From IMG/VR virus record IMGVR_UViG_3300008516_000145, positions 1-48,923 of that record: a stretch of 48,923 nt of DNA; one strand, given 5' to 3'. The position numbers and the translations under genes are program-made. Source of the DNA: a virus. This document shows, one piece after another, positions 876 to 48,923 of the stretch (the first letter of the stretch is position 1; the number at the start of each line of letters is the position of its first letter). Under the pieces are notes generated by a model, which worked only from the letters and a program-made list of their open reading frames with translations, had not been told where the DNA came from and ran no database searches.

Positions 876-935
876 TAGATAACGCCGCCAGTAAGCCGCC
901 CACAGGGTCGGATGGAGCAGCTTGGTTATAATTCA
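876..935 (-). other. attC-like integron recombination site
   Basis: Read on the minus strand: core TTATAAC, arm CAAGCTG, a GCCGCCC-containing inner stem, arm CTGGCGGC and core GTTATC. The AAGC...GCCGAC/GGCGGCTT pattern is typical of short attC sites. It overlaps the stop codon of the 926-1120 gene, as expected for a gene cassette. Confidence 0.75.
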
Positions 936-1140: not shown

Positions 1141-1264
1141 TTATAACGCAAAGTTAAGCTGGCGGCGGGATATATCCGCATCCAGTTTCACAAACACCCA
1201 TGATTAACGGCTTGCCACATTTGGGGCAACTATCCGCCGCTCTGCTTGAACGGTTTGTTAGGTG
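1141..1264 (-). other. Long attC-like site whose loop is coding
   Basis: On the minus strand: ACCTAACAAACCGTTCAAGC at one end and CCGCCAGCTTAACTTTGCGTTATAA (in two arms) at the other. These closely resemble classical attC arms. The roughly 70 bases between the arms are unusually long and encode the Cys-rich tail of the 1154-1387 gene. Confidence 0.8.
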
Positions 1265-1387
1265 ATTAACTTTTTTAAGAGCATTCAGAGCATCAATTAT
1301 TAAAACATGCTGTCCGCTCTTGTATTGCTTACCTAATTTTTTTAAATTGGTTTCGATGGTTGTTAGCGATTTATTTATTTCATCCAT
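1154..1387 (-). CDS. Cassette protein with attC-encoded zinc-ribbon tail
   Basis: A 77-residue protein. Residues 1-43 look helical (possible coiled coil). Then comes HLTNRSSRAA, the translation of the attC left arm, followed by SCPKCGKPLIMGVCETGCGY, a CxxC...CxxxC zinc-ribbon-like motif encoded inside the attC loop. The end, PPPA, comes from the right arm. There is no clear SD before ATG 1387; the ATG lies just after the upstream attC core (GCGTTAAATGACTTATGG), so translation may be coupled to the preceding cassette. Function unknown; metal binding is inferred from the Cys pattern. Confidence 0.7.
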   Translation of the reverse strand: MDEINKSLTTIETNLKKLGKQYKSGQHVLIIDALNALKKVNHLTNRSSRAADSCPKCGKPLIMGVCETGCGYIPPPA

Positions 1388-1391
1388 AAGT

Positions 1392-1516
1392 CATTTAACG
1401 CCATGAACTAACCAGCCTTTTCCTCACCATACTTTTCTTCACAGGTGCATGGGCGAGTACCGCACTTCAAACAAAAGCCAAGCTCCTCAAGGTCTGGTTC
1501 AGGGATTGGTTGGGAG
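1392..1516 (-). other. Long attC-like site whose loop is coding
   Basis: On the minus strand, arms CCCAACCAATCCCTGAAC and GGCTGGTTAGTTCATGGCGTTAAAT bracket about 80 coding bases. The same arm pair (AATCCCTGAAC / GTTAGTTCATG) occurs in the site at 7368-7438, which supports the assignment. Confidence 0.75.
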
Positions 1517-1632
1517 GCATTCTCACCATATAACTGCTTAGCTGCCTCCCATGCTGCCCTTGCTACATCTTTTTTGTTTTCTGGTGAATCATCTTGTTGT
1601 GATTCTAACCACCAGTACTCAAATAATTCCAT
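1408..1632 (-). CDS. Cassette protein with attC-encoded Cys-rich tail
   Basis: A 74-residue protein. The N-terminal part (MELFEYWWLESQQDDSPENK..AAWEAAKQLYG) resembles short phage proteins that precede Cys tails. The C-terminal part, GFCLKCGTRPCTCEEKYGEE, is a CxxC...CxC metal-binding-like motif encoded in the attC loop. The SD is GGGAGG at 1637-1642, part of the core (GTTGGGAGG) of the upstream attC. The recombination site therefore supplies the ribosome binding site. Function unknown. Confidence 0.75.
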   Translation of the reverse strand: MELFEYWWLESQQDDSPENKKDVARAAWEAAKQLYGENASQPIPEPDLEELGFCLKCGTRPCTCEEKYGEEKAG

Positions 1633-1636
1633 AAAA

Positions 1637-1697
1637 GCCTCCCAACGCCTCAGTTAAGCCGCCTGGACTCAGGTCGGCTGCAGAGCCTTGGTTATAT
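1637..1697 (-). other. attC-like integron recombination site
   Basis: On the minus strand: TATAACCAAGGCTCTGCAGCCGACC, a short loop, then GGCGGCTTAACTGAGGCGTTGGGAGG (written here as two arms). This is close to the classical attC arms of aadA-type cassettes. Its 3' core contains the SD of the 1408-1632 gene. Confidence 0.85.
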
Positions 1698-1814
1698 GCC
1701 AAATTTACATATTAAATAAATAATACCACCTATAACTGCACAAATAAGACCACCAATGAAGCCACTATATGGATTCCAAAAATGATACCAAGGTGGATGT
1801 CGATTAATTTTCAT
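1692..1814 (-). CDS. Cassette-borne 40-residue membrane peptide
   Basis: Short ORF from ATG 1814, with AAGGAGAAGATAA in front of the start (strong SD). The peptide begins MKINRHPPWYHFWNPYSG and has one hydrophobic helix (FIGGLICAVIGGIIYLI). It ends in the R-box of the attC at 1637-1697. This is a complete cassette of about 190 bp carrying a single-pass membrane peptide. No family is recognised. Confidence 0.65.
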   Translation of the reverse strand: MKINRHPPWYHFWNPYSGFIGGLICAVIGGIIYLICKFGI

Positions 1815-1837
1815 TTATCTTCTCCTTGTTTTTGGCA

Positions 1838-1966
1838 TTATAACGCTAAGTTAAGCTGGCGGCTCAAACATACAGTCACATGCTCCATCAAGAATAGGCT
1901 GATGGCAGACATCGCATCTACTTAATTCCGTAGCTATAGCCGCTCTGCTTGAACGACTTGTTAGGT
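1838..1966 (-). other. Long attC-like site whose loop is coding
   Basis: On the minus strand: CCTAACAAGTCGTTCAAGC, about 75 coding bases, then GCCGCCAGCTTAACTTAGCG and TTATAA. The arms are nearly the same as those at 1141-1264, but the loop sequence differs. Confidence 0.8.
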
Positions 1967-2114
1967 GACGTAATCGGTCTATTTCTTCTCTAGCCCTACG
2001 AGCAGCTTCCGCTATCATATCAGGATAACTTCGCTTTTCATCACAAAACTCTTCTAACCAAAGGTGTATTACTCTTGCCGCTTCTGCATATGTCTCAATC
2101 TTTCCTTGTGCCAT
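1851..2114 (-). CDS. Cassette protein with attC-encoded zinc-ribbon tail
   Basis: An 87-residue protein. The N-terminal half (AEAARVIHLWLEEFCDEKRS..ARRAREEIDRL) looks helical. HLTSRSSRAA is the translated attC arm. The tail, RCDVCHQPILDGACDCMF, has CxxC and CxC pairs encoded in the attC loop. There is no good SD; the start follows the upstream attC core directly (GCGTTAGGTGACTTATGG), matching the start context of the 1154-1387 gene. Function unknown. Confidence 0.7.
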   Translation of the reverse strand: MAQGKIETYAEAARVIHLWLEEFCDEKRSYPDMIAEAARRAREEIDRLRHLTSRSSRAAIATELSRCDVCHQPILDGACDCMFEPPA

Positions 2115-2118
2115 AAGT

Positions 2119-2170
2119 CACCTAACGCACAGTATTAACCAGAAATAAATCTGTATATTAGCGTATTACT
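2119..2170 (-). other. attC-like site, AATACGC subtype
   Basis: On the minus strand: GTAATACGCTAATATACAGA, a small loop, then CTGGTTAATACTGTGCGTTAGG. The same design, with a 4-base bulge beside ACGC/GCGT, is seen at 6731-6787 and 44303-44354. Confidence 0.6.
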
Positions 2171-2308: not shown

Positions 2309-2989
2309 TTATTTCCAAACTTCAATTCTATTGTTAGGATTAGAAAAAATATTCCAAAATGCAGATTGCCTTATCTTCTCATACTCAGCCCATGCAGGTT
2401 GCCTTATCTTCTCATACTCAGCCAATGCAGATTGCCTTATCTTCTCATACTCAGCCCATGCAGGTTGCCTTATCTTCTCATACTCAGCCCATGCAGGTTG
2501 CCTTATCTTCTCATACTCAGCCAATGCAGATTGCCTTATCTTCTTATACTCAGCCAATGCAGGTTGCCTTATCTTCTCATGCTCAGCCCATGCAGATTGC
2601 CTTATCTTCTCATACTCAGCCAATGCAGATTGCGTTATCTTCTTATACTCAGCCCATGCAGATTGCCTTATCTTCTCATACTCAGCCCATGCAGATTGCG
2701 TTAAAAGTTGTTCAGCAATTCCAATTTCACTAAACTCTCCTCTTTTTATCTTCTCTACAATTTCAGAAGGAAAATTATTAGGAGTAGAAAAATTAGTACA
2801 TTCATGGTCTATGCATTGTGAATGAGGTAGGCCAAAATATTCCTTGATAGCTCCATGTCCTTTAATTTCTTCAGAGAAATTATAGTCCAATTTCTTTCTA
2901 AGCTTTTTACCATTACGGGTATTGATCTCAAAATTAGTGAGGTAATAAAGCTTGCCTTTATATTCTGTCCAGCTAAGAAATTCGCACAT
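2309..2989 (-). CDS. Phage protein with eleven-residue tandem repeats
   Basis: 226 residues. Residues 1-90 form a unique domain (MCEFLSWTEYKGKLYYLTNFEINTR..) with CIDHECTNFSTP near residue 59. From about residue 97 an 11-residue unit, QSAWAEYEKIR, repeats about ten times plus a partial copy, giving a long charged helix, followed by a short end (FWNIFSNPNNRIEVWK). Similar AWAEYEKI-type repeats occur in uncharacterised phage early proteins. An AAAGGAGTC SD precedes ATG 2989 and lies inside a short leader ORF. This is the first large gene of the leftward early operon. Confidence 0.8.
   Translation of the reverse strand: MCEFLSWTEYKGKLYYLTNFEINTRNGKKLRKKLDYNFSEEIKGHGAIKEYFGLPHSQCIDHECTNFSTPNNFPSEIVEKIKRGEFSEIGIAEQLLTQSAWAEYEKIRQSAWAEYKKITQSALAEYEKIRQSAWAEHEKIRQPALAEYKKIRQSALAEYEKIRQPAWAEYEKIRQPAWAEYEKIRQSALAEYEKIRQPAWAEYEKIRQSAFWNIFSNPNNRIEVWK
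2359..2703. repeat. 33-bp tandem repeat array inside CDS
   Basis: Ten full 33-bp units and one partial. They vary at a few positions (His/Tyr, Ser/Pro, Ala/Trp codons). Because the unit length is a multiple of three and has few stops, all three rightward frames are also open here; these are shadows of the leftward gene. Confidence 0.95.
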
Positions 2990-3611: not shown

Positions 3612-3686
3612 ATGGAAAATGAAAACATCCTCCCATTATATAGTACAAACCAAAATCAAACACTATGCCCCAACAAAACAATTTGA
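3612..3686 (+). CDS. Possible 24-residue peptide overlapping the integrase leader
   Basis: ORF from ATG 3612 with a weak AGGA SD (MENENILPLYSTNQNQTLCP..). It ends upstream of the preferred integrase start. No family; it could be a leader for coupling, or chance. Confidence 0.25.
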   Translation: MENENILPLYSTNQNQTLCPNKTI

Positions 3687-3736
3687 CACCCCAACCTCAA
3701 AATAATATATCTCCTGCAAAGGAGGTGATTGGTAAA

Positions 3737-4807
3737 ATGGAAGGTTCAATACATCATGATAAGCATGGTTGGAAAGTCCATCTCAGGGGCAAATGGTTTA
3801 GGAGAGTCAAGATTAATGAAAAATGGGTATCATTTAAGCATAACAGGCAATCCGCTGAGGATGCACTGGTGTTGATGAATGGGGACATTATAAGGGGGAA
3901 TAAATATGATCCGAGAGATTGGACGAGTGATGAACCACTTAGTTTTAAGAATGTTACGGAGGAGTGGCTTGATTGTCGAAAAAAAGATGTACGGGCATAT
4001 CGTTTACTTTCCAATCATATTGAAAGAGCGAAAGATTTTTTTGGGAATAGAAATCTTAAAACAATCCGATTCAAAGAGTTGGATACTTTGGTTAAATCTC
4101 TGCCCGAAACCTTATCGGCAAAGACTAAACGTAATATCTTGGCGACTTTGCATTCGTTCTTCAAATGGGTAATAGACCAGGAATTAGATACTCCTAATCC
4201 GATGATAATGCCCCGATTTCCTAAGATCCCATATGAAAAGCCCCCTATGCCTAAAATACTTTCACCTGAGGACCAAGCTAAAGTCCTGGGCATACTTGCA
4301 CAGCAGAAACCCTACAAGATATACATAGCTGCCTTATGGTGCATTACCTATGGGCTGCGCTGGGAAGAAGTCAGGCAAATCAAGGGAAATGATTTTGACA
4401 ATGGCTATATGACCGTTTGGGATTGGAAGCAGAAACACTACAAACGCAAGAAGCTCCTAAAAGAAGATTGGGATACAGTCAAACGAGATAAGCTATTTGG
4501 CAATGAGTATTTCTTTAGGCATAATTCAGGCAGGCAGTATGGGAAAGATTTTCTCTATGAGAGGATCAGGAAGACTCTAAAGACATTAGGATTTTATGGT
4601 GTGAAGGCTTATGCAGTTATCCGGCATAGCACTATTACAGCATTGAGCGAGTTTTATACACCGGAAGAAATACAAAAATTATTTTCTCTGCACCTTAGTG
4701 ATTCAGTATGGCATTATCTACATTATGATGATGATAAGAAACAAGAGATGTACGCCAGGGCGCGGGGGAAGATAGGGGAGATAAAGGCAGAGAGTGTAAA
4801 TGATTAA
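3737..4807 (+). CDS. int: Tyrosine recombinase (phage integrase)
   Basis: 356 residues from ATG 3737, chosen because AAAGGAGGTGATT lies 11 bases upstream; an in-frame ATG at 3665 has no SD. The order is an N-terminal arm-type domain, a SAM-like core-binding domain (about 68-155) and the catalytic domain (about 175-340). Catalytic residues visible: R208 (LRWEE), R296-H297 (VIRHS) and H319 (LHLSD); the nucleophile is Tyr in WHYLHY (327 or 330). The usual HxxR His is replaced (AVIR). It lacks the extra domain of integron integrases, so it should integrate the phage rather than move cassettes (inference). Its stop overlaps the methyltransferase start. Confidence 0.85.
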   Translation: MEGSIHHDKHGWKVHLRGKWFRRVKINEKWVSFKHNRQSAEDALVLMNGDIIRGNKYDPRDWTSDEPLSFKNVTEEWLDCRKKDVRAYRLLSNHIERAKDFFGNRNLKTIRFKELDTLVKSLPETLSAKTKRNILATLHSFFKWVIDQELDTPNPMIMPRFPKIPYEKPPMPKILSPEDQAKVLGILAQQKPYKIYIAALWCITYGLRWEEVRQIKGNDFDNGYMTVWDWKQKHYKRKKLLKEDWDTVKRDKLFGNEYFFRHNSGRQYGKDFLYERIRKTLKTLGFYGVKAYAVIRHSTITALSEFYTPEEIQKLFSLHLSDSVWHYLHYDDDKKQEMYARARGKIGEIKAESVND

Positions 4808-6730: not shown

Positions 6731-6787
6731 CTAAACGCAATACGTTATTATACAGAATTTTATCTGCTTAATAGTGTGCGTTATGTG
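6731..6787 (+). other. attC-like site, AATACGC subtype
   Basis: AAACGCAATACG, TTATTATACAGA, a loop, then CTGCTTAATAGTGTGCGTTATG. It matches the minus-strand sites at 2119-2170 and 44303-44354. It lies just upstream of the 6800 gene and begins the rightward cassette cluster. The stretch 6617-6730 before it holds no gene I can support. Confidence 0.6.
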
Positions 6788-6799
6788 TAAGGAGGAAAA

Positions 6800-7018
6800 A
6801 TGAGCGAATTAGAAGAATTACAAGACAAGATGCACAAAATTAAAACTTGGATTAATGCGTATCCGTTAAGCGTTTTCCCTGAGCCTGATTTTAAGAAAGC
6901 GCATAAAGTTTTGAAACAGCACGGCATGACCCTGGACTCAATTTCAGCAAGCAATATGAGGCATGTATTGAATGGTATTAAGGAAATAATTGAAACACCT
7001 AACCAATCACTTCACTAG
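6800..7018 (+). CDS. Cassette-borne conserved small protein
   Basis: 72 residues: MSELEELQDKMHKIKTWINA, then YPLSVFPEPDFKKAHKVLK and LDSISASNMRHVLNGIKEI. I recognise this as a recurring small protein of phages and integron cassettes with no known function. SD AAGGAGG precedes ATG 6800. The last residues (TPNQSLH) and the stop are encoded by the left arm of the attC that follows, typical of cassette genes. Confidence 0.75.
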   Translation: MSELEELQDKMHKIKTWINAYPLSVFPEPDFKKAHKVLKQHGMTLDSISASNMRHVLNGIKEIIETPNQSLH

Positions 7019-7067: not shown

Positions 7068-7190
7068 CTTTGTTTGCCATGAATAGCGTGGGGGAGGCAA
7101 ACGAAATATCTTATTAGACGAAGCTATGGTTTTACGATGCTAATAAGGATGTAGATAGACGGGGCGGACTATCCAAACAAAGATTATAAC
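7060..7190 (+). ncRNA. Gene-less cassette, predicted structured RNA
   Basis: The cassette between two attC sites carries no ORF longer than about 12 codons. Its ends form a perfect 17-bp inverted repeat (7060-7076 with 7174-7190), 10 bp beyond the attC cores. Inside are GTTTGCC/GGCAAAC (7072-7078 with 7096-7102), CTTATTAG/CTAATAAG (7110-7117 with 7140-7147) and GATAG/CTATC (7154-7158 with 7169-7173). Together they give a cloverleaf-like fold. Integron cassettes with small RNAs are known in principle; this sequence I do not recognise. Confidence 0.5.
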
Positions 7191-7237
7191 AAGGCTACTC
7201 CAGCCGACCTTGTGGGCGGCTGACCGCTGCGTTAGAA
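7183..7237 (+). other. attC-like integron recombination site
   Basis: ATTATAACAAGGCTACTCC, AGCCGACC, a short loop, GGGCGGCT, GACCGCTGCGTTAGAA. The GCCGAC...GGCGGC inner stem is the same as in sites of the other two clusters. Confidence 0.85.
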
Positions 7238-7375
7238 ACCCAATAGGGAAGGAGGTGATTGCTTATGATTTGGCTTTATAACACAAAGAATAGGACTTAA
7301 TTTATAGAAGTGGCCCGGAGTAGTACCCAGCTTGGTGGAGGGCTATCCCCAGCGAAGCTGAGCTGGGTTTCTAAC
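7231..7375 (+). ncRNA. Second gene-poor cassette with terminal inverted repeats
   Basis: Bases 7231-7242 and 7364-7375 form a perfect 12-bp inverted repeat (GTTAGAAACCCA). A second hairpin is CCCAGCT/AGCTGGG near the right end, which competes with it. The only reading frame with a good SD (AAGGAGGTGA) is 11 codons. The cassette may encode a structured RNA, a tiny peptide or both. Confidence 0.4.
7265..7300 (+). CDS. Possible 11-residue peptide in cassette
   Basis: ATG 7265 lies behind AAGGAGGTGATTGCTT, one of the strongest SDs in the window, and encodes MIWLYNTKNRT. So strong an SD on so short an ORF is odd. It could be a leader peptide, a remnant, or a start whose gene was truncated. Confidence 0.35.
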   Translation: MIWLYNTKNRT

Positions 7376-7438
7376 AAATCCCTGAACTCCGACCCTCAAT
7401 AGCAAGCTATTTCGGGCGGGTTAGTTCATGCGTTAGCC
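7368..7438 (+). other. attC-like integron recombination site
   Basis: TTTCTAACAAATCCCTGAACTCC, GACCC, an inner hairpin (ATAGCAAGCTAT), GGGCGGGTTAGTTCATGCGTTAGCC (as separate arms). Arms AATCCCTGAAC/GTTAGTTCATG recur at 1392-1516. Confidence 0.85.
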
Positions 7439-7440
7439 CT

Positions 7441-7641
7441 ATGAAAACAGACCTAAATAAATACTATTTTTTACGTAATATGGATGAAGCTCACGGGAAA
7501 ATTGACGGTTGGCTCGGGCATCGAAAAAATGGGAGCTTATATTCTAAACGGTTCCAGGGCGGTGCGGCTGAATTTAAAGGTGGCCCCAAACTTGATGTAG
7601 CACTACAAAAGCACGGAAATTTTAAAGCATACGAGGTCTAA
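7441..7641 (+). CDS. Cassette-borne small protein
   Basis: 66 residues: MKTDLNKYYFLRNMDEAHGK, then a Gly-rich middle (GWLGHRKNGSLYSKRFQGGAA) and KLDVALQKHGNFKAYEV. No SD; the ATG lies 3 bases after the attC core GTTAGCC. Its stop is in the R-box of the next attC. No family recognised. Confidence 0.6.
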   Translation: MKTDLNKYYFLRNMDEAHGKIDGWLGHRKNGSLYSKRFQGGAAEFKGGPKLDVALQKHGNFKAYEV

Positions 7642-7698
7642 CCAGTCGCTTCACGCTGATCCGCAAAAAGACGCGGCCAGGTGAGCTAATCGTTATTT
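7636..7698 (+). other. attC-like integron recombination site
   Basis: GTCTAACCAGTCGCTTCACG, CTGATCCGC, a small loop, GCGGCCAG, GTGAGCTAATCGTTATTT. Arms TCGCTTCAC/GTGAGC and cores TCTAAC/GTTATT fit attC. Confidence 0.8.
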
Positions 7699-7712: not shown

Positions 7713-7934
7713 ATGGCATTTGATATATTTATATGTCCTGTTTGCAATGCAGCAACTAAAAGATCTCCTATTGTGCTTGAACACATGACAATCATTGTAT
7801 GTCCATTTTGTAATTCAGAAATAATAATGGGACTTTTCACAATAAAGCAATGGCATGAAATAACAAGCAAATCCAGTGGACGAGATAATACTTTGCAGTA
7901 TTTAGAGATAGAACTCAATTTTGATGAATATTAA
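7713..7934 (+). CDS. Cassette-borne zinc-ribbon-like protein
   Basis: 73 residues with two CxxC pairs (FICPVCNAAT near 7-14 and VCPFCNSE near 29-36), the spacing of a zinc ribbon, followed by a tail without Cys. AAAGG is a weak SD before ATG 7713. It lies between a clear attC (7636-7698) and a decayed one (about 7930-7962). Function unknown. Confidence 0.65.
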   Translation: MAFDIFICPVCNAATKRSPIVLEHMTIIVCPFCNSEIIMGLFTIKQWHEITSKSSGRDNTLQYLEIELNFDEY

Positions 7935-7962
7935 TCTCGCCACTGATCTAATCGTTGGGAGG
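7930..7962 (+). other. Partial attC-like core (CTAATCGTTGGGAGG)
   Basis: Only the 3' half is convincing: GATCTAATCGTTGGGAGG has the same CTAATCGTT as the site at 7636-7698. The GGGAGG serves as SD of the next ORF (ATG 7969). The left arm seems lost. Confidence 0.4.
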
Positions 7963-8732: not shown

Positions 8733-9163
8733 TTATATATCTAACCATCCCGGGAAAGCCAATTGCCAAAAAAAGACCACGCTTCTTTAGGCGAGGCAAC
8801 TTTGTTGGCACATATAATGACCAACAAACAGAAGAAGGCCGTTGGTTATGGGAAGCAAAACATCAATTACATGAGCAAGGGTTATTTACCGGACCTTTAA
8901 AGCTAATTGAAGGTCCAGTCATTTTAAAAGTTTCTTTTATTATGCCTATACCCAAAAATACCCCTAAAAGAGATATGAAAAAACTCGAAGATGGACAAGC
9001 TATGTGGCACGATAAACGACCCGATCTTGATAACCTTATCAAATTTGTAAAGGATTGTCTCAATAAATTCCTGTGGGAAGATGATTCGCAAGTCTGTCAT
9101 ATAGTAGCTATGAAAGTTTATGGTTTAGAGGCAGCAACTCAAGTTGAGATTGAGGAGATATGA
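8729..9163 (+). CDS. rusA: RusA-family Holliday junction resolvase
   Basis: 144 residues. GKPIAKKRPRF at the N-terminus and RPDLDNLIKFVKDCLNKFLW plus EDDSQV carry the conserved Asp residues of RusA endonucleases. RusA cuts four-way junctions; in phages it resolves recombination or replication intermediates before packaging. Length is normal for the family. The ATG overlaps the stop of the upstream gene and the stop overlaps the next small ORF. Confidence 0.9.
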   Translation: MIIYLTIPGKPIAKKRPRFFRRGNFVGTYNDQQTEEGRWLWEAKHQLHEQGLFTGPLKLIEGPVILKVSFIMPIPKNTPKRDMKKLEDGQAMWHDKRPDLDNLIKFVKDCLNKFLWEDDSQVCHIVAMKVYGLEAATQVEIEEI

Positions 9164-9219
9164 ACGAAATCTATAGTCCGATTACAAATGTAGAAGATAT
9201 TAAAAATTATTTTAAATGA
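9160..9219 (+). CDS. Nineteen-residue coupled peptide
   Basis: MNEIYSPITNVEDIKNYFK. The ATG overlaps the rusA stop (ATGA), and its own stop overlaps the ATG of the next gene in the same way. This double overlap suggests it is translated, at least to couple its neighbours. No known function. Confidence 0.4.
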   Translation: MNEIYSPITNVEDIKNYFK

Positions 9220-14379: not shown

Positions 14380-14709
14380 ATGGGCAATACATTAACCTCG
14401 AATCCTATCTATGTCGATACGGCTGCCACTGCCTGGACAGGCAATAAAATGGTGCGCCTTATCCAATGGATAGACGATGCTGGTGATATAGCGGATGATG
14501 ATGACCTGAGTATTACAATAAACGGCGTAACAATCGCAGTAAAGGTTCAGATAGCTACAACTGGGGGCGGTGCGCCGGTTGAAGCTGTTACACCCGGTGT
14601 GGGGAATATTTGTCTGTGGCAAATAGGGCCGTTTAATCCCGGGATGTATATGAGTGATTTTGTCGTTAATACGATAGATCACGGTACTCTCTTGATATGG
14701 ATACAGTAA
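14380..14709 (+). CDS. Small phage protein, probably structural
   Basis: 109 residues, mostly beta: MGNTLTSNPIYVDTAATAWT, GNKMVRLIQWIDDAGDIADD, then Gly-rich ends and DHGTLLIWIQ. I know similar short beta proteins near phage head genes (a one-domain decoration or attachment protein). SD AAGGAG precedes ATG 14380, 1 base after the previous stop. It overlaps terL by 13 bases. Confidence 0.6.
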   Translation: MGNTLTSNPIYVDTAATAWTGNKMVRLIQWIDDAGDIADDDDLSITINGVTIAVKVQIATTGGGAPVEAVTPGVGNICLWQIGPFNPGMYMSDFVVNTIDHGTLLIWIQ

Positions 14710-16190
14710 ATAGCGACAAAAAGGAAAACAGTAGCCCGACAGTTCCAACAGATTGGCTGCCAATAATAGCATGGCCTAATTATTTTTACGATAAGCAGGC
14801 CAAATTCACAATGTCGGATGCCTGGCAGAGATGGTTTATAGCTGCTAATGGTACTGGAAAATCCTTACAGGTCTACTGGAATCCTCTAGCATATATGCTT
14901 GGTGTTCACCCCAAGCAGAAGCAGTTGGGCAAACCACCCATAAGGGTGCGAACGATAGTACCATCCTTTGATAATGTTGAGGATGTGGCTCTTCAGAAGT
15001 TGCTTTCTCCACAGACTATCACTCCTCAGGGCATTGAGTTGGGGCCGATGTTGCCCAAAAGTATGATTAAGAAAGGGTTTTCCAAAGATCATAGGCAAAT
15101 TACCCTGAAAAATGGCTCATTTATGGGGTGGGTAACATCCGAGCAGGGATGGCTGGCTATGAGAGGGGCGGAATATGATATTCTTGTGGTAGATGAAGAA
15201 TCGGATGAAAGGGTATTTGATGAATGTAAACGTGGATTAAGGAATGCTAAAGGCGGGGGGAAGATAATTGGCGGGCTTACACCTCCCTTTGAGGAAGGTA
15301 AGGGGCCTACCTGGACAAAAGAAAAGATTGTGGATGCAAGCATCGATGACCCTGATATTGAGGTTTTTAATGCTTGTATGGCCGATAATCCCGCCATTAC
15401 AAAGGAATTTATCAAGCGATTTTCTAAGGGTAAAAGTTTAGAGCAGATACAGGTACAGATATATGGTCAATATCCTTCCTGGGGTAAAACAGTACACCCA
15501 TTTCAGGATAGGATGTGGAATGAAGAGGAATGTGATGGTCATTTATTACCAATAGACACTGAAATGCCAAACAATCGTGATGTTGATTGGGTAATGGCAT
15601 TTGACTGGCATCAAAGTAAACCTTGTGCTGCTGTGTGGGGATATATCGATAGAGACAAAAATGTAATTATCTTTGATGAGCTTGATACGGTTATTGCAGA
15701 AGATAAGAGTATAAGTGATCTTGCGGAATTATTCAAAAAGATAGAAGGGGCACCATTTGACAGACGTAGATGGCGCAGACGACAAGATCCAAGTGCAAGG
15801 CATAAGTATAAGGGCATACATAAAGATTTCAATGCCTGGGATGAATTCAGAAGGCATGGCATAATAACAGGCGAAGGTAAGAATAGACAGCCTGAAATTG
15901 GTATCAGTATTGTAAATGACTATTTGCGAGGCAATACTAAAGACCATCCACGCCTGTTTATTAGAGAGAATTGTGTCAGGACACGCCAGTATATGAATAA
16001 TCATTACTGGAAAAGGTCGAGAGACAATCCAATGGGTAAGCCTGATCCAAAGTGGTCTGATTATCCTATTTGCATACGATATTTATTACAAGATCTTGGA
16101 AAAACCGAAAGAGAGGGAAAGAAGTGGCCTCTTGTGAGCTACCAGACAGAAGAGAAGAAGAATGTAGTAAACCTGGAAAGATTTTTTTAA
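14697..16190 (+). CDS. terL: Terminase large subunit
   Basis: 497 residues. Walker A variant AANGTGKS at 49-56, Walker B DILVVDEES at 161-169, a coupling/motif III stretch (GGLTPPFE, 192-199), then an RNase H-like nuclease domain starting at AFDWHQSK (D303). TerL is the ATP-driven packaging motor and cuts concatemers. Length is normal. The ATG overlaps the preceding gene. The nuclease type (headful or cos) cannot be told by eye. Confidence 0.9.
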   Translation: MDTVNSDKKENSSPTVPTDWLPIIAWPNYFYDKQAKFTMSDAWQRWFIAANGTGKSLQVYWNPLAYMLGVHPKQKQLGKPPIRVRTIVPSFDNVEDVALQKLLSPQTITPQGIELGPMLPKSMIKKGFSKDHRQITLKNGSFMGWVTSEQGWLAMRGAEYDILVVDEESDERVFDECKRGLRNAKGGGKIIGGLTPPFEEGKGPTWTKEKIVDASIDDPDIEVFNACMADNPAITKEFIKRFSKGKSLEQIQVQIYGQYPSWGKTVHPFQDRMWNEEECDGHLLPIDTEMPNNRDVDWVMAFDWHQSKPCAAVWGYIDRDKNVIIFDELDTVIAEDKSISDLAELFKKIEGAPFDRRRWRRRQDPSARHKYKGIHKDFNAWDEFRRHGIITGEGKNRQPEIGISIVNDYLRGNTKDHPRLFIRENCVRTRQYMNNHYWKRSRDNPMGKPDPKWSDYPICIRYLLQDLGKTEREGKKWPLVSYQTEEKKNVVNLERFF

Positions 16191-24366: not shown

Positions 24367-25265
24367 TTAACCCTGAATGCAGAATCGAGACAACAAATAT
24401 TTGCAATGCCAGATGTGCCATGTGTGCTCATGATACCATGATCAGACCAAAGGGTATTATGGATACTAACTTTTTTAAGGAATTGGTGGATCAAGCAAAA
24501 GATACGGGTGCAGAACTTATCTCTCCCTTCGGGTTTGGTGAACCTTTACTCGATCTCGACTTAGAAGATAAGATACAATATTGCACAGATTTAGGGCTTG
24601 AAACGTTTATTACAACTAATGGTTCTCGATGTTTTTCCAGTAGGATGCATGATCTCTTTTATGCAGGTTTAACACATATACGATTTAGCATCCATGCAAT
24701 CAACAAAGAGAATTATGAAAAAGTTCATAGAAAACTTAACTGGAAAGTGACAACTGATAATCTTGAAGATACGAAAAGAATTAAAGATGAATTTTACCCT
24801 GATAGAAAAATATCTCTTACAGTAATACCGATGAACGGGGAAACAGTCCAGCAGGTACGGAATTATTGGGAAGGCATGGTTGATGATCTTGAAATATGGA
24901 GACCTCATAATTGGTCAACGCTTAAAAAATATAGGGAAAAAACATCTAACCATTTGCTCTCATGTGGCAGGCCAGAAAGGGGGCCAATTCAGATTCAATG
25001 GGATGGAAAAGTTATTCCTTGCTGTTTCATCACAGATGCGGAAATAGTATTAGGAGATGCTCATAAAGAGAGTTTAGAGAAAATCTTAAAAGGGGAGGCA
25101 TACAATGATCTAAGAGCACGGCATAGGATAGGTGATTTTGAGGGATTGCCTTGTGAGGATTGCGACCAGAGATTCATTTTAGATGAATCACCATTACTAT
25201 ATTCAAGTTGTGATCCACTAAGGTCTATAGATACAACAAGCAGTTTAAAATTTTATTTAAAGTAA
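24357..25265 (+). CDS. Radical SAM enzyme with SPASM-type C-terminus
   Basis: 302 residues. CNARCAMC at 16-23 is the CxxxCxxC cluster site; GFGEPLLDL is the GGEP-like motif. The C-terminus (LLSCGRPERGPIQIQWDGKV, IPCCFITDAEIVLGD, PCEDCDQRF) has the Cys set of a SPASM/twitch domain holding extra Fe-S clusters. SPASM enzymes modify peptides or proteins, which makes a virion protein as substrate attractive (inference). The two genes just downstream are tandem small proteins with a shared Cys. Confidence 0.85.
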   Translation: MQLINPECRIETTNICNARCAMCAHDTMIRPKGIMDTNFFKELVDQAKDTGAELISPFGFGEPLLDLDLEDKIQYCTDLGLETFITTNGSRCFSSRMHDLFYAGLTHIRFSIHAINKENYEKVHRKLNWKVTTDNLEDTKRIKDEFYPDRKISLTVIPMNGETVQQVRNYWEGMVDDLEIWRPHNWSTLKKYREKTSNHLLSCGRPERGPIQIQWDGKVIPCCFITDAEIVLGDAHKESLEKILKGEAYNDLRARHRIGDFEGLPCEDCDQRFILDESPLLYSSCDPLRSIDTTSSLKFYLK

Positions 25266-25279
25266 AGGAGGAAAGAAAG

Positions 25280-25561
25280 ATGGCATTAACAATAGTTGAA
25301 AAATCAAGACAAAGTATGGGTGGAAAAGCATTCAGGGCTTTTGAGATTACTACCGATACTTCAACCGCAGGCTCACTTACGGTAACAGCGGCAAGTTGCG
25401 GTATGAACAATTTCGATCATGTAATGGTCCAAGGAGCTACAATGACCAGTGCGGATATAGGTGATTTTTTCCTAAGTACAGTTTCGGGTGCTTACATTGA
25501 TATGAATGTTACCAGTCTTGACGCTAATGATCAGTTTGAACTATGGGCCATAGGCACATAA
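25280..25561 (+). CDS. Small virion-type protein, tandem copy 1
   Basis: 93 residues, beta-rich: MALTIVEKSRQSMGGKAFRA, then TVTAASCGMNNFDHVMVQGA and DQFELWAIGT. A strong SD (AAGGAGG) suggests high expression. It looks like a head decoration or fibre-base protein. One Cys lies in the conserved segment. It shares an exact 88-bp stretch with the next gene. Confidence 0.7.
   Translation: MALTIVEKSRQSMGGKAFRAFEITTDTSTAGSLTVTAASCGMNNFDHVMVQGATMTSADIGDFFLSTVSGAYIDMNVTSLDANDQFELWAIGT
25377..25464. repeat. 88-bp exact direct repeat, copy 1
   Basis: Identical to 25675-25762. It covers the segment TVTAASCGMNNFDHVMVQGA and a little more. The flanking coding DNA has diverged, which points to gene conversion. 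Confidence 0.95.
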
Positions 25562-25574
25562 GGAGGATAGAAAA

Positions 25575-25859
25575 ATGGCAATATTAACAATAAGTGAAAA
25601 GGCAAGAGGCCAAGTAGGTGGAAAAGCATTCAGAGCTTTTGAGATTACTGTAGCTTCAGCAGTAGCGGGAGGTATTACGGTAACAGCGGCAAGTTGCGGT
25701 ATGAACAATTTCGATCATGTAATGGTCCAAGGAGCTACAATGACCAGTGCGGATATAGGTGACTGGTTTTTAAGCACCTGTTCAGGCCCATACATTGATA
25801 TGCTTATTATAAGTGCAGATATTGGCGATCAATGTGAACTATGGGCCATAGGCACATAA
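25575..25859 (+). CDS. Small virion-type protein, tandem copy 2
   Basis: 94 residues, paralogue of the preceding gene: MAILTISEKARGQVGGKAFR, the same Cys-containing middle segment, and DQCELWAIGT. It has two extra Cys (STCSG, DQCEL). The ends (GAACTATGGGCCATAGGC..) and the following SD are also the same in both copies. Probably decoration proteins with subunit variation. Confidence 0.7.
   Translation: MAILTISEKARGQVGGKAFRAFEITVASAVAGGITVTAASCGMNNFDHVMVQGATMTSADIGDWFLSTCSGPYIDMLIISADIGDQCELWAIGT
25675..25762. repeat. 88-bp exact direct repeat, copy 2
   Basis: Second copy of the 25377-25464 sequence; see there. Confidence 0.95.
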
Positions 25860-25871
25860 GGAGGATAGGTT

Positions 25872-42043: not shown

Positions 42044-42074
42044 TAATCCTCTACCAAGCGTAGAAGGATCTCTT

Positions 42075-42956: not shown

Positions 42957-43096
42957 CCTCCTAATGCCCTAATCAGCGGCGGGGATATCCGCAAAATTGA
43001 CAAAACTTATAATATTCATCAATATTATCGTGCACACCCCCACAATTCGGACAAGCCCAAGATCTATCCCCGTCTGCTGCATTTGGTTGTTGGGAG
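42957..43096 (-). other. Long attC-like site whose loop is coding
   Basis: On the minus strand: CAACAACCAAATGCAGCAGACGGGG (left arm) and CCCCGCCGCTGATTAGGGCATTAGG (right arm) around about 85 coding bases. CATTAGG may be a decayed GTTAGG core. The loop encodes the second half of the zinc-ribbon of the 42973-43224 gene. Confidence 0.6.
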
Positions 43097-43224
43097 ATAT
43101 CAACTAATGGTCTTTGAAATTTACAAATACCATCAAATGAGCACTCCCCTTGATTGCCCATACATAGATAATGACATGGTGGGCCAGCAGTACATAAAAT
43201 TATTGTTTTATCCTTCTTACTCAT
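42973..43224 (-). CDS. Cassette protein with attC-encoded zinc-ribbon tail
   Basis: 83 residues. Two Cys clusters: ILCTAGPPCHYLCMGNQGEC..CKF near the N-terminus, and WACPNCGGVHDNIDEYYKFC, QFCGYPRR at the end, a standard zinc ribbon encoded in the attC-like loop. SD GGGAGG (43233-43238) is part of the upstream attC core GTTGGGAGG, 8 bases from ATG 43224. Function unknown. Confidence 0.75.
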   Translation of the reverse strand: MSKKDKTIILCTAGPPCHYLCMGNQGECSFDGICKFQRPLVDISQQPNAADGDRSWACPNCGGVHDNIDEYYKFCQFCGYPRR

Positions 43225-43518: not shown

Positions 43519-43578
43519 CCATAACGCCGCCGGTAAGCCGCTGCTTCTTAGTGGTCGGCTTCAGGGGCTTGGTTAGCT
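43519..43578 (-). other. attC-like integron recombination site
   Basis: On the minus strand: CTAACCAAGCCCCTGAAGCC, GACCAC, loop, AGCGGCTTACCGGCGGCGTT, ATG. The GCCGAC/CGGCTT inner arms are as in sites 876-935 and 1637-1697. Confidence 0.8.
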
Positions 43579-43740: not shown

Positions 43741-43824
43741 GGCTAACGCCTCACATGAGCCGCTATTCTCTGCCTTCTGATTCCGCAGGGCTTTCTCTAG
43801 TCGGCTCAATGTGATTGTTAAACA
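43741..43824 (-). other. attC-like integron recombination site
   Basis: On the minus strand: GTTTAACAATCACATTGAGCCG, AC, a 30-base loop with an inner hairpin, CGGCTCATGTGAGGCGTTAGCC. One of the best copies: arms CACATTGAGCCG/CGGCTCATGTG match almost perfectly. Confidence 0.9.
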
Positions 43825-44302: not shown

Positions 44303-44354
44303 CCTTATAACGCATTGTATTAAGCAGGATAATTTCTGCCTAATAGCGTATTAC
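44303..44354 (-). other. attC-like site, AATACGC subtype
   Basis: On the minus strand: GTAATACGCTATTAGGCAGA, loop, CTGCTTAATACAATGCGTT, ATAAGG. ACGC/GCGT and TATTAGGCAG/CTGCTTAATA pair with a 4-base bulge. It contains the last codons of the metallo-hydrolase gene. Confidence 0.65.
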
Positions 44355-45487: not shown

Positions 45488-46693
45488 CTAAAACTCAGGC
45501 CCGCCGTCTGAAGCTGCCTTTTCTCCTGCCATCGCTTCTGCGATTTTATCTTGTGCAATTTTACAGGTTGGAAATTCCTCGCAGCTATTTTCACAAACCT
45601 CTATATTGATTCTGTGTTCTTTTGTTGGACAAAAGAACCAATGGTGGCCAGTTGATTCCTGATTGGTATGCTCTCCTTGGTTCTGTGTTTCTTCGGATTC
45701 CTTTGCTACCACTTCCAGCAGTTTCTCATGGGCCTCTCTTGGAAGTAATCCACTAATGTCGATCTTGCGTGCTGCACATTCTTCTTTTAGGATGTTTACT
45801 TTATCAGCTCCATAGCGTTTCTGAATTTCCGATTTATAGGGGTCCCATATAGGTTCAATTTTTTCGCTCGTCTGATCGTTTTCAATCTCATCATCATCAA
45901 TGTCGATAACTTCTTGATTGGCACCCTCCTCGATCTGTAAGAGGGCTTCTTCCTCAGCCTCTACCACTTCAGAACGCATAGCAGCTATTTTCAGGTGCTT
46001 GTCATCACTACTGTTGATAATAGGCTTGCAGGCATGGTTAATGACAGTCCTTCGGCACATATCAGCGGTAAAATCATCATGCACAGATCCGGCTTTAATA
46101 CTTCCGTCTTTTTCTACCGGGTGCATTTTGCTCTTTGTCCAAGCCTTCTTAATCTCCTCAAAGGTTAAGAGGTCAGTCTTTGTGATCTCGCCACCTATAC
46201 CTATCACCATGCAATAGGCGGCTTTAATTTTACCGACATTCACCGCCTCAAGGGTTTGCGTATGTTTGGTGATATTCTTTTTGCCTTTGACAATCTCATA
46301 TTCCAAGGTATCAGTCTCGTACACAGGCTCGGCTATGATGTCCTCGATTTTATCGTCAATCCTTTTTGCTAGGGCCATGCTGCCGAAATACGAACGCTGG
46401 AAAGCGAGTTGTTTTCCATAAGGGATGAAATATCCCTGCTTCTTGGCAGGATTCAGGCCGGTTATCACCATATCCATAAGAGAGTTTAAAATGCTGGCTT
46501 TTGTGCAGACCTCAAGAGCAAGGTTATTGTCTTTATCCCTCGTTTCCTGCAAGATCAACCATGCTGATTTTAATGCATTTTGTGGGCTGTAATCTGGTGG
46601 AAAATGGATCTCCCCGTTTGCCTCCAATGCCTTGATGCGTTTGCTTACGGCATCAAGCGTTTCTTCTTTGATTAAGGTTAGTTCTTTACTCAT
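45488..46693 (-). CDS. recT: RecT-family single-strand annealing protein
   Basis: 401 residues from ATG 46693 (GAGGAGGTATCAA SD); 46708 is an upstream in-frame ATG. The RecT core is in the first 270 residues: LNSLMDMVITGLNPAKKQGY, FIPYGKQLAFQRSYFGSMAL, AKRI. A variable acidic linker follows, then a Cys-rich end: FFCPTKEHRINIEVCENSCE, EFPTCKIAQ (4-5 Cys). The Cys tail is unusual for RecT and may bind zinc or a partner. RecT anneals ssDNA during phage recombination, usually with an exonuclease such as RecE/SbcC-like. Confidence 0.9.
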   Translation of the reverse strand: MSKELTLIKEETLDAVSKRIKALEANGEIHFPPDYSPQNALKSAWLILQETRDKDNNLALEVCTKASILNSLMDMVITGLNPAKKQGYFIPYGKQLAFQRSYFGSMALAKRIDDKIEDIIAEPVYETDTLEYEIVKGKKNITKHTQTLEAVNVGKIKAAYCMVIGIGGEITKTDLLTFEEIKKAWTKSKMHPVEKDGSIKAGSVHDDFTADMCRRTVINHACKPIINSSDDKHLKIAAMRSEVVEAEEEALLQIEEGANQEVIDIDDDEIENDQTSEKIEPIWDPYKSEIQKRYGADKVNILKEECAARKIDISGLLPREAHEKLLEVVAKESEETQNQGEHTNQESTGHHWFFCPTKEHRINIEVCENSCEEFPTCKIAQDKIAEAMAGEKAASDGGPEF

Positions 46694-46748
46694 TTGATAC
46701 CTCCTCATAAATTAGATGTTTTTAATGCTTCTTGCGGTTTTTCATTAA

Positions 46749-48661: not shown

Positions 48662-48923
48662 TTAGTTATGCGATCCGCTAGTTGTCATTCTTTCTGGTTG
48701 AGGTCTTCTTTCTGCGTTTTCTGGTGTAGGAACTTCAGCAATAGCATCAGTATTTACAGCATTATATTGCTTTTCTGTTTGTTCTGGATTATTGAGATAT
48801 TGAATTAAATTTTCTATTAATTCTTTTTTATTCTTCGCAACAAACTCGCCACAACCGACTTTGACGATAAAGCCCATATTCATTGAAGGCTCTATCTGAA
48901 TATTGTATTTAATAGCTTTACCT
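48662..48923 (-). CDS. Small phage protein, 5' end cut by window edge (right copy)
   Basis: About 87 codons are visible, starting just past GKAIKYN (the start codon lies a few bases beyond the end). Contains MNMGFIVKVGCGEFVAKNKK, ELIENLIQYLNNPEQTEKQY, then NAVNTDAIAEVPTPENAERR. The first part repeats the left-end gene with few changes. Joined over the map ends it gives one gene of about 89 codons, whose SD and start are at 173-186. Confidence 0.75.
   Translation of the reverse strand, partial: GKAIKYNIQIEPSMNMGFIVKVGCGEFVAKNKKELIENLIQYLNNPEQTEKQYNAVNTDAIAEVPTPENAERRPQPERMTTSGSHN
48759..48923. repeat. Terminal direct repeat, right copy (imperfect)
   Basis: Same length as bases 1-165, with 6 differences; the last 66 bases are identical. 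See left copy. Confidence 0.85.

Follow-up and report, generated by a model that had tools for sequence, protein, structure and literature searches.

Clusters of attC sites lacking integrase (CALINs) have been described in phages (Qi et al. 2023, PMC9892861); like the phage record analyzed here, they consist of attC clusters and small cassette genes and have no integron integrase. Some of their attC sites, which are other sites than those treated below, are recombined by IntI1 (PMC9892861). Neither a coding attC loop nor a Cys tail is described in that report, and the words zinc and VTS are absent from its text. Long-VTS attC sites, among them the VCR of Vibrio (PMC2727003) and the Lysobacterales sites collected for the present comparison, likewise measure 100-142 nt and have long terminal structures. 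For the majority of the collected Lysobacterales sites, unlike those of the phage, the gene ends no later than the R'' box and in-frame Cys pairs are lacking. In 2020, Nivina et al. reportedly placed engineered, synthetic attC sites inside coding sequences. Such sites likewise put a hairpin within an open reading frame (ORF), whereas the phage sites are natural and the loop itself appears to encode a C-terminal domain.

Cassette arrays of the phage record

The window, i.e. the whole stretch of 48,923 nt that was analyzed, is a 48.9-kb virus record (G000), a phage record that carries integron-like cassette arrays. In the whole window, we counted 15 attC-type sites, which are grouped into three small-gene arrays:

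0.9-2.1 kb, minus strand: array 1
6.7-8.0 kb, plus strand: array 2, opposite to the other two arrays
42.9-44.3 kb, minus strand: array 3

At least two attC sites lie within a few kb in the same orientation with a small gene between them, which is the arrangement of a CALIN or gene-cassette array, despite some attC-attC intervals without a called gene. In the plus-strand array at 6.7-8.0 kb, no called cassette gene was seen in the intervals preceding 7184-7237 and 7369-7438. No integron integrase gene (intI) was found beside the arrays in the window, and the locus is not a complete integron. A phage-type tyrosine recombinase is among the window proteins; the recombinase at 3665-4807 reached 31.8 bits compared with the TIGR02249 cut-off of 265 bits, and fits the phage integrase family phrog_1. 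The gene cassettes of the phage are of the integron type; as no integron integrase accompanies them, they form a CALIN. The window also encodes a large protein (14697-16190) taken as the terminase, whose match to a terminase profile is only weak, as well as a RecT-like annealing protein (45488-46708; phrog_148, E = 1.5e-59) and an SbcC-like protein.

To build an attC covariance model, we used 16 sites taken from the window, contig G002 and bacterial loci. This model found three sites in phage TJE1, which is reported to carry three attC sites (PMC9892861). In the window, the sites and their covariance-model scores were as follows:

877-931, minus strand: short attC; 35.8 bits, in training set; gene stop is the R'' TAA, offset 3
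1640-1697, minus strand: short attC; 37.1 bits, in training set; gene stop is the R'' TAA
6997-7066, plus strand: short attC; 47.7 bits, in training set; gene 6800-7018 stops in L''
7184-7237, plus strand: short attC; 28.3 bits, outside training set
7369-7438, plus strand: short attC; 38.7 bits, in training set
7636-7698, plus strand: short attC; 21.5 bits, in training set; gene stop is the R'' TAA
43235-43289, minus strand: short attC; 46.9 bits, in training set
43519-43578, minus strand: short attC; 33.4 bits, in training set
43741-43823, minus strand: attC with loop of ~32 nt; 48.6 bits, in training set; gene stop is the R'' TAA
44051-44105, minus strand: short attC; 38.4 bits, in training set; gene stop is the R'' TAA

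A 45-nt hairpin element (AATACGYTAWTA..CAG...CTGSTTAATANNNTGCGTTA) was observed at 2123-2167 (-), 6739-6783 (+) and 44308-44352 (-), directly before the first cassette gene of all three arrays, and appeared 0 times in 100 shuffles. Its R' side is attC-like (GCGTTA) and the R'' AAC is absent; the element resembles an attI-like or array-leader site. Across 30.8 kb, contig G001 matches the window at 99.99-100% identity; it ends at window position 42063, shortly before the cassette array at 42-44 kb, as would be expected from variable cassette content. Elsewhere in the record, gene 2309-2989 (-) contains a repeat in ~10 imperfect tandem copies, which encode units like QSAWAEYEKIRQ, and positions 25265-25868 hold a tandem duplication of ~310 bp with 81% identity. 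The record ends (1-165 and 48759-48923) are 96% identical copies of one gene start, and represent either an imperfect terminal repeat or a circular genome closed across strain variants.

Long attC sites

Five sites have long loops of about 53-100 nt. The preliminary description had located three long sites with in-frame Cys tails and a fourth case, and all four sets of coordinates were confirmed. Site 7858-7960 (+), which was absent from that description, is a counter-example in the same phage, with no Cys in its loop. The covariance model did not span the long loops, and we therefore wrote a two-arm profile with a free loop, whose training set excludes sites 1, 2, 3 and 7858-7960. The cassette sense is the minus strand at sites 1-4.

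1141-1263, minus strand: long attC site 1; coding loop of ~73 nt; R'' ACCTAAC, L'' CGTTCAAGCAGAGCGGCGG, L' CCGCCGCCAGCTTAAC, R' GTTATAA; profile score 44.6
1393-1515, minus strand: long attC site 2; loop of ~71 nt; arms AACCAATCCCTGAACCAGACC ... GGCTGGTTAGTTCATGGCGTT; profile score 41.0
1838-1966, minus strand: long attC site 3; loop of ~79 nt; arms nearly as in site 1; profile score 43.6
42957-43098, minus strand: long attC-type site 4; R' GTT lost (GCATTAG); profile score 24.5
7858-7960, plus strand: fifth long attC; coding loop without Cys; profile score 31.6

The maximum profile score in 20 block-shuffled windows, searched on both strands, was 22.9. The remaining long-loop scores, from the window and from related phages, were led by 57.9 (the known attC at 43741-43823), 41.2 (an attC in phage G003) and, next, 17.6. 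The score of site 4 compares with at most 2.4 in its own shuffles and 22.9 in the genome-wide shuffles; its R' box is without the conserved GTT, so that this site may be inactive. Sites 1, 2, 3 and 7858-7960 contain both the R'' AAC and the R' GTT, their outer R positions being complementary only in part. The L''/L' inverted repeat with one or more extrahelical bases on the L'' side is present throughout (profile scores 24.5-44.6). Rfam gave no match.

We folded the bottom strands using DNA parameters. Most arm pairs were kept in sites 1, 3, 4 and 7858-7960 (for site 4, 25.6 arm-arm pairs were expected), and site 2 had the weakest fold among the long sites of the minus-strand arrays. In the folding check proposed in the preliminary description, the arms of most long sites thus still paired, those of site 2 more weakly. 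The minimum free energy (MFE) was -11 to -21 kcal/mol for the phage long sites compared with about -35 kcal/mol for bacterial long sites, in which the loops of long VTS pair with themselves (~14 pairs). The long-loop hairpins may still be able to recombine.

Reading frames through the loops

In five ordinary cassettes of the phage, the gene stops at the R'' TAA (offset 3). At all five long sites, the cassette gene passes R'', L'' and the whole loop and stops in or just before L'; the stop offsets from the R'' start are 107, 105, 113 and 123 for sites 1-4 (in L') and 74 for site 7858-7960 (just before L').

1154-1387, minus strand: cassette gene 1, 77 aa; end ...CPKCGKPLIMGVCETGCGYIPPPA*; stop TAA in L'; predicted helical body, arm-encoded HLTNRSSRAA and loop-encoded C-terminal Cys4 tail
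1408-1632, minus strand: cassette gene 2, 74 aa; end ...CLKCGTRPCTCEEKYGEEKAG*; tail CLKCGTRPCTC; stop TAG in L'
1851-2114, minus strand: cassette gene 3, 87 aa; end ...CDVCHQPILDGACDCMFEPPA*; tail CDVCHQPILDGACDC; stop TAA in L'
42973-43224, minus strand: cassette gene 4, 83 aa; end ...CPNCGGVHDNIDEYYKFCQFCGYPRR*; C-terminal zinc-ribbon pattern CPNCG...CQFCG; stop TGA in L'
7713-7934, plus strand: fifth long-site gene, 73 aa; CxxC pairs in the body, none in the loop

The long loops look coding, and we infer that they are translated.

Four-Cys tails

The loop-encoded tails of sites 1-4 have the patterns CxxC...CxxxC, CxxC...CxC, CxxC...CxC and CxxC...CxxC, each with the two suitably spaced Cys pairs of a zinc ribbon or knuckle. 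We counted four-Cys motifs in the last 40 residues of the 55 small ORFs that a simple caller found in the window, and only the genes of sites 1, 2 and 3 contained one; gene 4 was missed by the caller, apparently because a longer ORF on the other strand overlaps it. With gene 4 included, four of the five long-loop genes ended in this motif compared with none of 51 other small ORFs (P = 1.4e-5, post hoc), and with the related sites 1 and 3 taken as one, three of four did so (P = 1.5e-4, likewise post hoc). The phage is rich in zinc-type small proteins overall, and a four-Cys motif stands at the end of ~3% of the small ORFs from the other phages examined.

Against Pfam, the tails matched zinc ribbons only below the curated cut-offs. 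The families were Zn_Ribbon_1, DZR and DUF7575, whose four-Cys knuckle patterns are like those of the tails; the phage tails differ from them in their weak scores and in being encoded within an attC hairpin. The gene 4 tail alone matched DUF7575 (E = 1.9e-4) and Zn_Ribbon_1 (E = 1.2e-3), both below cut-off; the best match to a curated domain, site 4 against DUF7575, reached 21.2 bits compared with a cut-off of 28.5. In gene 2, the arm-encoded linker and the tail together weakly matched the C-terminal part of phrog_5288 as one stretch (E = 0.0044). A low-confidence single-sequence structure model of cassette 1 (pLDDT 67) contained two helices plus a short strand within the tail. The four tails look metal-binding, and are probably zinc-binding. 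In phage G003, the gene at 8902-9199 (-) (L131), right after an attC-like site, carries an N-terminal motif (CGGCGFPIGMDGSCGC) with the same Cys pattern as the cassette 3 tail.

Occurrence in other genomes

For comparison, we used 332 long attC sites with class-1-like arms from GTDB genomes, mostly Lysobacterales. At these sites, 253 genes ended at or before R'' and 54 read through, so read-through by itself is not new. The proportion was nevertheless higher in the phage (5/5 versus 54/308 sites with a called gene, P = 2e-4), as was that of read-through loops with Cys (4/5 versus 1/54, P = 5e-5). A stricter GTDB subset of 204 loops of at least 40 nt gave 34 read-throughs and no CxxC. What stands out in the phage is that every long loop is read through and that most carry Cys tails. 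The expectation that Cys tails are a general property of long attC sites was not borne out, since only one of the 54 read-throughs among the 332 mostly Lysobacterales sites had an in-frame CxxC. This sole case (L028) is a bacterial attC-like site with a score of only 26.1, its loop being read as ...AACNSCGATPDVSVS.

A first GTDB pattern scan requiring a 3-nt L'-R' spacer gave zero matches; the spacer of sites 1 and 3 is 2 nt, so this zero is valid for classical spacing only. With a 2-nt spacer, none of 399 genomes from the L077 phylum contained the Cys pattern, and none of 299 genomes from the L036 family contained a site with a loop of any kind. Scanning viral contigs for class-1-like long sites returned L003-L005 only. 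In the same kind of contigs, no relatives of cassette 4 and no further copy of the arm pattern of sites 1 and 3 were found, and the tail pattern matched one locus (L007, see below) and two unrelated places without attC. Distant blastn and tblastn searches of phages and plasmids gave no convincing relatives. We found no description of coding attC loops, or of attC, integron and zinc ribbon together, in the open-access papers searched. The Cys tails in coding loops look both real and undescribed, and the phenomenon is so far local to one phage plus one partial parallel, L007.

Separate histories of body, arms and tail

We compared the parts of the cassettes individually, and found that body, arms and tail have separate histories. 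Between sites 1 and 3, the arms are identical at 26/28 and 25/26 nt (z about 9.5), whereas the bodies (z 0.9) and the loop DNA (z 0.7) are unrelated. The preliminary description had stated that the tails differ while the arms are similar, which applies to sites 1 and 3; the arms of sites 2 and 4 differ. Similar arms on unrelated cassette genes are usual within an integron, and this similarity alone is therefore no proof of tail exchange.

In another phage (contig G002), an unrelated protein of 119 residues (L007) carries the site-1 tail again: the tails are similar (z 7.3), but not the bodies (z 0.0) or the left arms (z 1.2). Within the 18 codons compared, 15 nt differ between the tails, 11 of them in third positions, and 15/18 residues are identical; when 15 changes were placed at random 20,000 times, no placement retained this number of residues. 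In this only comparable pair of tails, the third-position bias bears out the purifying selection for which the preliminary description had suggested looking. The L007 gene starts a few bases past a good attC (38.9 bits). A 10-bp stem, which has one extra base on its 5' side, encloses the tail; six such stems occur in 70 kb of strand. We had considered L007 as a second intact attC with a Cys loop, but downgraded it on account of its profile score (-3.3) and of its arms, which are unpaired in the predicted fold; its R'' is without AAC, and it is attC-like at most.

The cassette 3 body (residues 8-50) shares 72-76% identity with a 64-residue protein in phages G003 and G004. These copies have neither attC nor tail at that place, and the DNA homology with cassette 3 stops 11 nt before R''.

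DISCUSSION

We consider, with a probability of roughly 0.6, that the recombination-neutral loop of attC has here been put to use as coding space, and that the product under selection is a C-terminal mini-domain. This mini-domain, encoded by the loop in four cases, would have 20-30 residues with four Cys and would probably bind zinc. When the 65-nt VTS of the VCR was swapped for three bases, bottom-strand recombination changed only 1.6- to 2.4-fold (PMC2727003). The VTS is the part of attC whose change recombination tolerates, and is thus usable as coding space. A loop of ~70 nt would offer ~25 codons, which is room for a Cys4 knuckle but for few other folding units, and this small size could explain the bias toward Cys tails among coding loops without a special link between zinc and integrons. 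The sample is small: a single phage provides all four Cys tails, and sites 1 and 3, whose attC arms are related, are not independent.

An ordinary overlap might also produce such loops, if genes running into attC sites met by chance with the Cys-rich proteins of this phage and the coincidence was amplified by the kinship of sites 1 and 3. Read-through at 54 of the 332 GTDB sites, the loop at 7858-7960 that is read through without a Cys tail, and the four-Cys ends seen in ~3% of small ORFs from the other phages examined are all consistent with this explanation. However, it does not readily account for the contrasts of 4/5 versus 0/51 in the same phage and 4/5 versus 1/54 among read-through loops, for the several tail types that differ from each other, or for the third-position bias, and we regard it as unlikely, though deserving some weight.

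The order of events could instead have been the reverse, with body-plus-tail genes existing first and attC arms arising or being grafted round their 3' ends when they became cassettes. The cassette 3 body, tailless in G003 and G004 and losing DNA homology 11 nt before R'', argues against such an origin, as do the arms common to sites 1 and 3 despite their unrelated bodies; we find it doubtful, even though the weak match of gene 2 to phrog_5288 runs from linker through tail as one stretch (E 0.0044) and the arms of sites 2, 4 and L007 are mutually different. Selection of the loop DNA as a recombination or regulatory structure, with the frame and the Cys codons as by-products, appears very improbable: long bacterial VTS are structured in this way (~14 loop pairs, MFE about -35 kcal/mol), but the phage long sites fold far more weakly (-11 to -21), two homologous tails are conserved as protein (11/15 changes at third positions), and VTS replacement hardly affects recombination (PMC2727003).

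The integrase cut at R' falls past the stop codon, so body and tail move together and the tail alone is not swapped; loop exchange as standard integrase chemistry was rejected for this reason. The exchangeable tail envisaged in the preliminary description thus gains from the recurrence of the site-1 tail with another body and left arm, but loses from the joint movement of body and tail at the integrase cut. For tails to be exchanged, the DNA would have to recombine at R'' or within the arms, or by homologous recombination. The likeliest route of joining would be rare recombination at R'' or at short shared arms, possibly aided by the RecT-like protein. R''-box recombination has been recorded in mutated sites when the top strand was delivered (PMC2727003). 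Exchange of the tails is a plausible possibility. The more far-reaching idea, that in-frame attC hairpins whose loops encode a C-terminal zinc module are natural domain-swapping sites at which exchange at R'' or in the arms re-tags unrelated cassette proteins of phages with different tails in a manner resembling exon shuffling, is speculative and in our judgment unlikely.

An attC site is usually treated as a non-coding recombination hairpin behind the gene; here, its loop appears to be translated and under selection at the protein level. Annotation that ends cassette genes at R'' can consequently miss a C-terminal domain. The finding also bears on how cassettes acquire their attC sites and on whether integron sites may shuffle protein domains in addition to whole genes.
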